Shown one piece after another: positions 51,864-56,500 of a stretch of 56,678 bases of DNA (positions are counted from its first letter, which is position 1; every line of letters begins with the position of its first letter). The notes beneath the pieces are model-generated. The model worked only from the letters and a program-made list of their open reading frames with translations, was not told the origin of the DNA and searched no databases. The DNA is from Anaerolineales bacterium (GTDB taxonomy: Bacteria; Chloroflexota; Anaerolineae; Anaerolineales; E44-bin32), in assembly GCA_004376895.1 (NCBI GenBank), contig SOIH01000118.1, positions 1 to 56,678 on the forward strand, written 5' to 3'. Both the position numbers and the translations under genes were made by a program.

Positions 51864-52682
51864 GTGGAAATTGAGAGACCGCTCATCATTGTTCGGGGTG
51901 GAGGTGACCTGGCGACAGGGGTCGCGGCGCGCCTGCATCGTTGTGGATTCGACATCATCGTACTCGAGATCCAGCAGCCCCTGGCTGTCCGGCGGCGCGT
52001 CGCCTTTGCTGAAGCTGTTTATACAGGAGAGGTCGAGGTAGGGGGAGTTCGGGGTGTCTTTGTCCCCGATTCAGAGCAAATCACACATCTTCGTACAGAG
52101 CGTGTCGTTCCGGTGCTTGTCGACCCTGCGGGAAACCTGAGTGCACAGATCAACGCATCAGCTCTGGTCGACGGACGCATGCTTAAAACTCCACCAGAGA
52201 CGACTCTAGATTCGTCCCTTTTCACGATCGGACTCGGACCGGGATTCACAGCCGGAGTCAACTGTCACGTAGTGATTGAGACCAACCGGGGGCACAATAT
52301 GGGGCGTGTTATCTGGCAGGGGAGCGCTGAGCCTGATACGAAAGTCCCGGAAGCAGTGGCAGGGTTCGACGTCGACCGGGTGCTGCGGGCACCGGTCAGC
52401 GGGCTTCTAGATGGCGGCAAGGAGATCGGCTCCATGATAAAAGCTGGAGATGAGATTGTCCGTGTCGGTGGTGTGCCGGTCGAAGCGCTCTTCGATGGCG
52501 CGCTGCGAGGGCTGGTGCATGACGGCGTGCGAATCGAAGCGGCGGCGAAAATTGGCGACCTGGATCCGCGCGGTGAACCATCCTATTGCTTCTCAATATC
52601 AGATAAATCACTCGCCGTCGGCGGCGGAGTGCTCGAAGCGCTGCTCTCACAGCCCCATATACGAAGATTGCTGAGCCACTGA
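51864..52682 (+). CDS. yqeB: YqeB-like selenium-dependent molybdenum hydroxylase system protein
   Basis: GTG start; 'IIVRGGGDLATGVAARLHRCGFDIIVLEIQQPLAVRRRVAFAEAVYTGEVEVGGV', 'TIGLGPGFTAGVNCHVVIETNRGHNMGRVIWQG'. Confidence 0.92.
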   Translation: MEIERPLIIVRGGGDLATGVAARLHRCGFDIIVLEIQQPLAVRRRVAFAEAVYTGEVEVGGVRGVFVPDSEQITHLRTERVVPVLVDPAGNLSAQINASALVDGRMLKTPPETTLDSSLFTIGLGPGFTAGVNCHVVIETNRGHNMGRVIWQGSAEPDTKVPEAVAGFDVDRVLRAPVSGLLDGGKEIGSMIKAGDEIVRVGGVPVEALFDGALRGLVHDGVRIEAAAKIGDLDPRGEPSYCFSISDKSLAVGGGVLEALLSQPHIRRLLSH

Positions 52683-52683
52683 G

Positions 52684-54018
52684 ATGGAATTGCCGAAAGC
52701 CCTGCGCATTTCTCCGGGGCAGATCGTGGCTTTCGTTGGCGCAGGTGGAAAATCTACGAGCATCCGTCGGCTGATCGAAGAGCTAACTCCTAAGACGCCA
52801 GTTCTCATCACGACAACCACAAAATTAGCGCTGGATCAAATAGATCTTGCTGTTCAACATATCATCCTTCGCTCAAAGGAGGATGTGAGGCTCTTCCCCG
52901 CGCTTCTTCATGAGCAAAGCTCCGTGATCGTAACTGGTGAAAGATGGTCCGAAGAGCCGAAGTGGACCGCGCCTCCGGAGGATTTGCTTTCGGCTCTGCT
53001 GCCATTGGCGGCTGCTTCGGGCGCTGTGGTTCTGATTGAGGCGGATGGCGCTCGAGGCTGCTCATTGAAAGCGCCAGCGGAGCATGAACCGGTCATACCT
53101 CAGTTTGTTGATCTCGTCGTGCCGGTGATGGGTCTTGATGTTATTGGGGCAAAGCTGGAAGGTGTTTTGGTTTATCGACCAGAACTGGTCAAAACATTAT
53201 TAGGCCTTCATAAAGGCCATATTATACTGCCAGCGGATCCGGCTAGGATCCTGGCGCACGAGAATGGAGCATTAAAAGCAGTGCCGCAAGGCGCACAGGT
53301 GCGGGTGATCTTGAATAAGGCTGAGACGCAAAAAGCGGTGGAGCAGGGACGTGAAATCGCCGAACTAACCCTGAAGACCGATCGCATCGAATCGGTCATT
53401 TTGGCGCAGGTGCAGCAAGTGGACCCGGTTGTGGAAGTTCATGGGCGGATTGCCGGGATAATATTAGCGGGAGGTGGATCGCGGCGATTTGGCCGACCGA
53501 AACTGTTGGAGTTTTGGGATGGTGAAGCTCTAATTCAAAGGTCAGTCCGGGCGGCGCGAGAGGCGGGGCTCGACCCGATTGTTGTTGTGCTCGGCGCAGA
53601 TGGGCCGGCTGTACGAGATGCGTTAGGTAAGATTCCGATTCAAATCACCAGCAACCCTGACTGGGCTGAGGGGCAGAGCAGCTCCGTGCGCGCAGGGCTT
53701 AAGATGCTGGCACCTAATGTTGATGGCGCAGTTTTCCTCCTGGCAGATATGCCTCTTGTTGATGCTGATCTTGTTAGCACTATGGTGGAGACCCATCGCA
53801 AGTCGTTAGAGCCGATCGTGGCGCCTTGGACTGGTGAGAGATGGGGAAATCCTGTTCTTTTCGACCGGGCGACGTTCGAAGCGCTGAGTCGGATTCGCGG
53901 CGATCAAGGGGGACGAACGTTATTCAAGAAATATTCTGTCGAAGCTGTCCCATGGGGACAGTCGGCGATGCTCGATATCGATACCCCTGATGATCTCGAC
54001 ACGTTCAGAGGGAGGTAA
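52684..54018 (+). CDS. Fusion: YqeC-like selenium cofactor protein (N-term) + MocA-like nucleotidyltransferase (C-term)
   Basis: N-term 'IVAFVGAGGKSTSIRRLIEEL', 'VLIEADGARGCSLKAPAEHEPVIP'; C-term 'GIILAGGGSRRFGRPKLLEFWDGEALIQRSVRAAREAG', 'LLADMPLVDADLVSTMV', 'WGNPVLFDRATFEAL'. Confidence 0.92.
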   Translation: MELPKALRISPGQIVAFVGAGGKSTSIRRLIEELTPKTPVLITTTTKLALDQIDLAVQHIILRSKEDVRLFPALLHEQSSVIVTGERWSEEPKWTAPPEDLLSALLPLAAASGAVVLIEADGARGCSLKAPAEHEPVIPQFVDLVVPVMGLDVIGAKLEGVLVYRPELVKTLLGLHKGHIILPADPARILAHENGALKAVPQGAQVRVILNKAETQKAVEQGREIAELTLKTDRIESVILAQVQQVDPVVEVHGRIAGIILAGGGSRRFGRPKLLEFWDGEALIQRSVRAAREAGLDPIVVVLGADGPAVRDALGKIPIQITSNPDWAEGQSSSVRAGLKMLAPNVDGAVFLLADMPLVDADLVSTMVETHRKSLEPIVAPWTGERWGNPVLFDRATFEALSRIRGDQGGRTLFKKYSVEAVPWGQSAMLDIDTPDDLDTFRGR

Positions 54019-54194: not shown

Positions 54195-54230
54195 ACGGAT
54201 TGTAGAATGAACCTGCCGCCGCCCGATGTC
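54163..54230 (+). promoter_or_regulatory. Antiterminator helix (alternative to terminator)
   Basis: GACATCGGGCG (54163-54173) is the exact reverse complement of CGCCCGATGTC (54220-54230). Confidence 0.75.
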
Positions 54231-54257
54231 ACCGAGACCGGGCGGTGTATTTTTTTT
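54217..54257 (+). terminator. Intrinsic terminator (attenuator) in the aspS leader
   Basis: CGCCGCCCG(AT)GTC-accga-GAC-CGGGCGGTG (with one G-U pair) followed by TA-TTTTTTTT (54250-54257). Confidence 0.85.
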
Positions 54258-54272
54258 CAGTATGGAGGCACG

Positions 54273-56045
54273 ATGCTTAAGACTCATGATTGCGGCGAGC
54301 TGAGATCAGATCATATAGGCGAACGTGTGACACTTGCCGGGTGGGTGAATCGACGTCGGGATCACGGTGGGGTGACGTTTATCGACCTGCGCGATCGCTC
54401 GGGGATTGCACAGATCGTCGCTAATCCAGAGATATCTCCTGAGGCGCATGAAACTGCAGTCGAGATTCGCAATGAATGGGTGCTGCAGATCGAGGGGGTT
54501 GTTCGAAGCCGACCGGAGGGAATGGTGAACCCTGATCTGCCTTCCGGTGAGATTGAGGTGGAAACCCAGAAGATTGTCGTCTTAAACCCTGCGAAAACGC
54601 CTCCGTTTGCGATCAACGAAGAGACGGAAGTCGACGAAATGGTCCGCCTGAAGTATCGATATTTGGACCTCAGGCGCGAGCGCATGAAGGGCAACCTAGA
54701 GCTTCGCCATAAAGTGGTCAAGTACATTCGTGATTTCCTCAGCGAACGCGATTTCTGGGAAGTGGAGACCCCGATTCTTTTCAAGACTACACCCGAGGGC
54801 GCACGGGATTACCTGGTTCCCTCCCGCGTTCACCCGGGGGAGTTTTTCGCCTTACCGCAATCGCCTCAGCAGCTCAAGCAGTTACTAATGGTTGCAGGTG
54901 TGGAGCGTTATTTCCAGATCGCCCGCTGTTTCCGTGATGAAGATCAGCGCGGAGATCGCCAACCGGAGTTCACACAGTTGGATCTCGAGATGTCCTTCGT
55001 CGATCGTGAGGACGTGATGGCGCTTTCGGAGGAGCTGTTCACCACAATGGTGGAGAAGCTGCTTCCTGAGAGAAAGCTGATGCACAAACCCTGGCCTCGG
55101 CTCTCTTATCGCCAGGCGCTAGAGCGCTTTGGGCGAGATGCGCCGGACATCCGTTTTGGGCTGGAACTGAAAGACGTGACGGATTTGGCGATGGAGTCGG
55201 GTTTCCAGGTGTTTGAAAAGGTGGTTGAGAAGGGCGGAGAAGTCCGAGGCTTAAATGTAAAAGGATCTGGGAGCTTCAGCCGGAAGGAAATCGAGGAACT
55301 GACAGCTTTCGTCTCGCAATTTGGAGCCAAGGGTTTAGCGTACCTGGCGCTTGATGAGAAAGGGGAGCATCGGTCTTCCTTTGCCAAGTTCCTAGCGGAG
55401 GATCGGATTAAGGCTTTGCTGCACAGGCTGGAAGCCGAACCCGGCGATCTACTCCTGTTTGTAGCCGATAAACCGGCGGTTGTCTTCGAATCCCTGGGGC
55501 GCTTACGCGTCCACCTCGGCGAGCGGCTGGGTTTGCTGGATCCGAAGATTCTCGCTTTCGCATGGGTGATCGATTTTCCCTTTGTGGGATGGAATGAGGA
55601 TGAGAAGCGTTGGGATCCGAGTCACCATCTCTTCACCGCACCGATGCCAGAGGACCTTTCGTGGCTAGACTCTGATCCCGGCAAAGCACGCGGTCAGCAA
55701 TATGACATGGTGCTCAACGGGTTGGAGGTTGGTGGTGGGAGCATCCGTATCCACGATCGAAAATTGCAGGAGAAGGTATTCGCTTTAATCGGTCTTGAGC
55801 CTGATGTCGCTCAGCAGCGATTCGGCCACATGCTTGAGGCTTTTGAATACGGGACTCCACCCCATGGCGGCATCGCGCCAGGGATCGACCGGCTCGTTCG
55901 CGTCTTTGCCGGAGAGGAACATATACGCGAGGTTATCGCCTTCCCGAAGAATCAAGCAGCGCGCGATGTCATGGCAGATGCCCCCTCACCGGCTGATCCT
56001 GATCAATTGAAGGAGCTTCATTTGAGGGTTATTGACGAGGATTAA
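54273..56045 (+). CDS. aspS: Aspartyl-tRNA synthetase, probably non-discriminating (Asp/Asn)
   Basis: 'GWVNRRRDHGGVTFIDLRDRSGIAQIV', 'RYLDLRRERMKGNLELRHKVVKYIRDFL', 'ARDYLVPSRVHPGEFFALPQSPQQLKQLLMVAG', 'FRDEDQRGDRQPEFTQLDLEMSFV'; GGAGG RBS before ATG 54273. 'RRRDHGG' carries the His typical of ND-AspRS. Confidence 0.97.
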   Translation: MLKTHDCGELRSDHIGERVTLAGWVNRRRDHGGVTFIDLRDRSGIAQIVANPEISPEAHETAVEIRNEWVLQIEGVVRSRPEGMVNPDLPSGEIEVETQKIVVLNPAKTPPFAINEETEVDEMVRLKYRYLDLRRERMKGNLELRHKVVKYIRDFLSERDFWEVETPILFKTTPEGARDYLVPSRVHPGEFFALPQSPQQLKQLLMVAGVERYFQIARCFRDEDQRGDRQPEFTQLDLEMSFVDREDVMALSEELFTTMVEKLLPERKLMHKPWPRLSYRQALERFGRDAPDIRFGLELKDVTDLAMESGFQVFEKVVEKGGEVRGLNVKGSGSFSRKEIEELTAFVSQFGAKGLAYLALDEKGEHRSSFAKFLAEDRIKALLHRLEAEPGDLLLFVADKPAVVFESLGRLRVHLGERLGLLDPKILAFAWVIDFPFVGWNEDEKRWDPSHHLFTAPMPEDLSWLDSDPGKARGQQYDMVLNGLEVGGGSIRIHDRKLQEKVFALIGLEPDVAQQRFGHMLEAFEYGTPPHGGIAPGIDRLVRVFAGEEHIREVIAFPKNQAARDVMADAPSPADPDQLKELHLRVIDED

Positions 56046-56055
56046 TGGTGAAATA

Positions 56056-56084
56056 TTGCCAACTAGAATTGAACGTGGTATACC
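56056..56084 (+). promoter_or_regulatory. Sigma-A type promoter of a candidate ncRNA
   Basis: TTGCCA (56056-56061) - 17 nt - TATACC (56079-56084). Confidence 0.55.
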
Positions 56085-56090
56085 AATGTC

Positions 56091-56262
56091 AGACCCTGCT
56101 GTGTTCGTGATGCAGCAAGAGGTTTTGAGCCAACACTTGATAAATGGGGTTCGTTGTCCGGTGGGTAACGCGATAGGCTTCGGCCAAGGCGAAAGTCACT
56201 GGTAGGATCCCGCCTGCAATAGCAGGTTCAAAATCAAGCAGCACACGGCATGGCGGGGCAGT
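56091..56262 (+). ncRNA. ssrS: Structured ncRNA candidate, 6S RNA-like architecture
   Basis: Long-range helix GGTTTTGAGCC (56121-56131)/GGTTCAAAATC (56225-56235); terminal stem CCGGTG/CACTGG, CGC/GCG, GGC-TTCG-GCC; small 3'-side hairpin CTGC-aata-GCAG; open 5' bubble; own promoter and terminator. No covariance search run. Confidence 0.5.
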
Positions 56263-56272
56263 AATTATTAAT

Positions 56273-56304
56273 AGCGGTGGAGATCTCTCCACCGCTTTAA
56301 TATT
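56273..56304 (+). terminator. Intrinsic terminator downstream of the ncRNA candidate
   Basis: AGCGGTGGAG (56273-56282)-ATCT-CTCCACCGCT (56287-56296), followed by TTAATATT. Confidence 0.75.
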
Positions 56305-56419
56305 AATCCGTCATGGTTATCCTGAGGTGAGTATCGATTTATAGATGAGGCCCCGGAACGGTGTCAAATCAATAGGTGTGGGGAATCAGCCAGGAAAAAA
56401 CACACTTATGTGGTTTGGC

Positions 56420-56448: not shown

Positions 56449-56500
56449 TCCGTAATTCCCAAGAATTCATCCTCAGCAACATATGACAAGGTTAGAAATT

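Follow-up and report, generated by a model that had tools for sequence, protein, structure and literature searches.

6S RNA is a small RNA by which bacteria restrain their main RNA polymerase. In Bacillus subtilis, the gene for 6S-1 RNA (bsrA) is flanked by aspS and yrvM and lies directly after aspS, and aspS read-through transcripts that contain 6S-1 have been recovered with sigma-A (PMC11077062). The product RNA that belongs to 6S-1 has the sequence GUUCGGUCAAAACU (PMC12005410). In Escherichia coli 6S RNA (ssrS), the 3' strand of the central bubble forms a hairpin with bases of helix P2 when P2 opens (PMC8876501). A literature search in a limited collection found no paper dedicated to 6S RNA in Chloroflexi or Anaerolineales.

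Results

We compared the window, the whole 56,678-nucleotide stretch of Anaerolineales DNA analysed here, with Rfam and found that a single model matched at gathering thresholds. This was RF00013 (6S/SsrS), at positions 56090-56263 of the plus strand, with 74.9 bits (gathering threshold 46.4 bits), an E value of 5.4e-13 and coverage of model positions 1-187 of 187 (cmscan). The RNA probably starts near 56091. The genome's contigs contain only this one copy. Weak model matches of 21-30 bits on the minus strand were rejected as genes, being mirror matches of the rod. The 6S gene is flanked by aspS (54207-56045) and recA (start near 56483), both confirmed with NCBIfam. It starts 45-48 nt past aspS, has the same orientation as both neighbours and ends about 220 nt short of recA. 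The aspS protein shares 96-97% identity with its counterparts in metagenome-assembled Anaerolineales genomes, which places the window, itself part of a metagenome-assembled genome, in Anaerolineales (Chloroflexota). An earlier note, made from the letters alone, had proposed a 6S-like non-coding RNA between aspS and recA, and the full-length match bears this out. The note had also seen no open reading frame in the unit; indeed, no sense ORF of at least 60 aa lies between aspS and recA, and a mechanical ORF listing gave an antisense one of 67 aa (56089-56292).

In the Rfam alignment, the distal arm carries short insertions and deletions relative to the consensus, and a few non-canonical pairs occur in P1 and the distal arm; we counted these pairs against the assignment to 6S RNA. 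We also considered an RNA like Ms1, which would bind core polymerase instead of the sigma holoenzyme. Ms1 is described as structurally related to 6S RNA (PMC9130861). However, RF00013 is matched over its full length and the template for a product RNA is conserved (see below), and Ms1 has been described in actinobacteria, which makes an Ms1-like RNA exceedingly improbable.

Assignment to 6S RNA was further supported by the secondary structure. The fold of 56085-56310 has a free energy of -95.5 kcal/mol (z = -6.2), and none of 200 shuffled sequences was equally stable. An alignment of 30 homologues, the set also used for the promoter, terminator and template counts, gave a consensus of seven helices and 50 pairs, with 95.5% of cells paired. 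Both sides had changed with pairing kept in 21 of the 50 pairs, and in slid controls the paired cells dropped to 34-42% in every case. Compensatory change has therefore kept a helical arm on either side of a single-stranded central bubble. The earlier note had named the lack of a covariance match and of conserved helices among relatives as what would tell against its proposal; a match was found, along with 30 homologues that carry compensatory changes.

The closing stem, P1, is formed by 56094-56116 and 56238-56258 (all features are on the plus strand) and was recovered both in the folds and as helix 1 of the consensus, with 95.2% of cells paired and double changes in five pairs. Inside it lies P2, in which the 5' arm (56121-56131), beside the central bubble and on the strand that carries the product-RNA template, pairs with the 3' arm (56225-56235). 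P2 is the helix GGUUUUGAGCC/GGUUCAAAAUC, with 11 pairs including two G-U, and is supported by the consensus alignment (98.3% of cells paired) and by pairing probabilities of 0.63-0.99. The earlier note had described this 11-bp helix as the outer one; the helix exists, but it is P2, and the true closing stem had been missed. Similarly, the open 5' bubble of the note is present at about 56132-56144, although its GGGGUUC part pairs in the next helix. The distal arm (P3 and beyond, 56146-56211) comprises helices 3-6, in which 12 of 16 pairs have double changes, and contains the predicted GGC-UUCG-GCC cap at 56176-56185. The small hairpin that the note placed 3' in the bubble, CCUGC-AAUA-GCAGG, had likewise been seen correctly; it lies at 56213-56226, and its five pairs are kept in 30/30 homologues. 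This hairpin has GG 56225-56226 in common with P2.

Projection from the published B. subtilis product RNA (PMC12005410) predicted a product RNA 5'-GUUGGCUCAAAACC here, starting opposite C56134 on the 5' side of the bubble; its start would read GUUGGCUC. We found that 29 of the 30 homologues share the template C and that nucleotides 2, 3, 4, 5 and 8 of the predicted product RNA are invariant. When 8 to 14 template bases were blocked in silico, P2 opened partly or fully and the hairpin at 56213-56226 entered the minimum free energy structure. In the free form, GG 56225-56226 pair with CC 56130-56131, so that P2 and the hairpin exclude each other there, and both alternatives are possible in all 30 homologues. 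These predictions suggest that the P2/hairpin alternative works as a conserved switch, like those published for the release of 6S RNA (PMC8876501).

Next to the conserved structure, the gene has predicted signals for its own transcription. The earlier note had read a promoter TTGCCA-N17-TATACC, and the letters are as it gave them: a -35-like TTGCCA at 56056-56061, a 17-nt spacer and TATACC at 56079-56084. However, the -35 hexamer is weak and its sequence variable, and the conserved part is an extended -10 element, TGG-TATA (TG then TATACC, 56076-56084). The motif TGnTAw begins 12-17 nt ahead of the start of the 6S match in all 30 homologues, with the T, G, T and A columns invariant. Since the -35 position varies, the signal has the appearance of an extended -10 promoter; it was not picked up by a generic sigma-70 scan. 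In order-level relatives (L012, L022, L044, L058 and others), CTACC or CTACTCA often stands at the -35 position, some 35 nt ahead of where the RNA starts, where TTGnCA is common in the window's family; CTACC/CTACTCA is possibly a lineage-specific promoter element.

At the other end, an intrinsic terminator stem-loop lies at 56273-56296, with ten pairs, seven of them G-C. The strong terminator of the earlier note is borne out as a stem-loop, but the U tract past it (TTAATATT) is poor and interrupted in the window's own genome, which we counted against the 6S assignment; same-genus relatives have longer T runs past the same stem. A terminator-like hairpin was found 3' of 22 of the 30 homologues. 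The hairpin sequences differ between lineages, as would be expected if selection acts on the function and the DNA has not simply been inherited.

To see how widely the gene occurs, the window's genome and 60 relatives were searched. A 6S match was detected in 44 of the 61 genomes, 39 of them above the gathering score. A model built from the 30 homologues (R1) also matched in 5 of 18 genomes in which the Rfam model gave no or only a weak match, although one of the five (G058) was marginal. Within the window's own family, the genomes without a match have incomplete aspS loci. In six of them (G005, G010, G014, G016, G020 and G024) aspS was not found either. The G004 contig stops 15 nt after aspS and the G021 contig 132 nt after it, whereas a genus-mate has 6S 774 nt past the gene; G023 holds only the N-terminal part of aspS. 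G006 has a partial 6S cut by a contig end. These absences look like assembly gaps, and since they go with missing, truncated or contig-end aspS, we counted them in favour of the 6S assignment. On the other side, three order-level genomes with aspS (G031, G046 and G056) gave no detectable 6S, which was counted against it. In a phylum sample, 35 of 151 genomes matched the Rfam model under strict filters; the rest are not proven to be without 6S.

The position after aspS also recurs, in several Chloroflexota families. Among the closest genomes, 48 of 80 aspS loci have 6S downstream in the same orientation, at distances of 47 nt to about 3.3 kb, and aspS directly precedes 6S in phylum-level loci L141 and L142 and class-level locus L121 as well. 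An asnS-like gene often lies between the two in one set of loci; in L079 and L088 this place is taken by an ORF that resembles glutamine synthetase by eye. The recA gene adjoins 6S mainly within the family of the window, and elsewhere the downstream genes vary or lie on the opposite strand. A general coupling to recA was rejected, as recA was seen downstream only in members of that family.

These neighbourhoods bear on another reading, that the element is a long leader or trailer, a cis-regulator of recA or the terminal part of the aspS mRNA, with a chance resemblance to 6S. Its place on the same strand, 45-48 nt past aspS and about 220 nt before recA, would fit such a role, as would the recovery of aspS read-through containing 6S-1 with sigma-A in B. 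subtilis (PMC11077062). However, recA is not the next gene in most homologues, where downstream genes are variable or on the opposite strand; the homologues have their own conserved -10 and terminators; and the match to the 6S family is full-length. We consider a leader or trailer very improbable, and 56090-56263 is almost certainly this genome's 6S RNA gene; like others of its family, the RNA would mimic a promoter, bind the holoenzyme and be released by way of a product RNA.

Three aspS loci of other Bacillota were inspected. In Listeria and Paenibacillus (one aspS locus each), the interval from aspS to rarA gave no 6S match even with E relaxed to 1; the Acetoanaerobium aspS locus had no 6S match at the gathering score. 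An ancient aspS-6S linkage general in Bacillota was therefore rejected; the linkage is not general there, and the presence of aspS beside 6S in both groups may be an old trait or a coincidence.

Elsewhere in the window, a gene at 52684-54018 (plus strand) encodes a 444-aa protein with a YqeC-type domain (residues 14-229) and a MocA-like nucleotidyltransferase domain (258-438) that scores below its own cut-off. A YqeB gene (51864-52682) directly precedes it. The two read as genes for the maturation of a selenium-dependent molybdenum hydroxylase.

Discussion

Sequence and structure together identify the element as 6S RNA, an ordinary gene of a known kind and a genuine gene in an uncultured Anaerolineales bacterium. 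It shares with RF00013 the full-length covariance match, the rod with a central bubble, the 3'-side hairpin and the conserved template strand, and differs by nothing past ordinary sequence divergence. The predicted product GUUGGCUCAAAACC is similar to the published GUUCGGUCAAAACU of B. subtilis 6S-1, and aspS adjoins the gene in both. Unlike in 6S-1, the hairpin here draws bases from the 3' strand of P2 once the template is blocked, which is partly closer to the E. coli type, and no bubble-collapse helix is predicted. The likeness to E. coli 6S lies in a 3'-bubble hairpin that draws on P2 bases, although with the template blocked it has six pairs here and nine in E. coli (PMC8876501).

From the family we infer promoter mimicry, polymerase binding, a product RNA, release and a role in stationary phase. 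Transcription of the RNA would begin at an extended -10 promoter of its own and end at the intrinsic terminator. As a rod with a central bubble it would mimic a melted promoter and bind the housekeeping sigma-RNA polymerase holoenzyme, lowering transcription as growth slows. When nutrients return, the polymerase would use the 5' strand of the bubble as template, starting at about C56134, and make a short product RNA (GUUGGCUCAAAACC...). This product would open P2 and free its 3' strand for the CCUGC/GCAGG hairpin, and the polymerase would be released.

The recurrent linkage to aspS is the only mildly interesting point about a gene that is otherwise ordinary. The order of the two genes might be old and kept because aspS read-through feeds or tunes 6S RNA, which we regard as unlikely; if true, it would tie polymerase silencing to the translation machinery. 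The gene is of the sort that annotation of proteins alone overlooks, and the recurrent aspS neighbour and the predicted product RNA offer simple handles for 6S in divergent genomes. With these homologues, a well-supported set of 6S RNAs is now documented for Anaerolineales (Chloroflexota).
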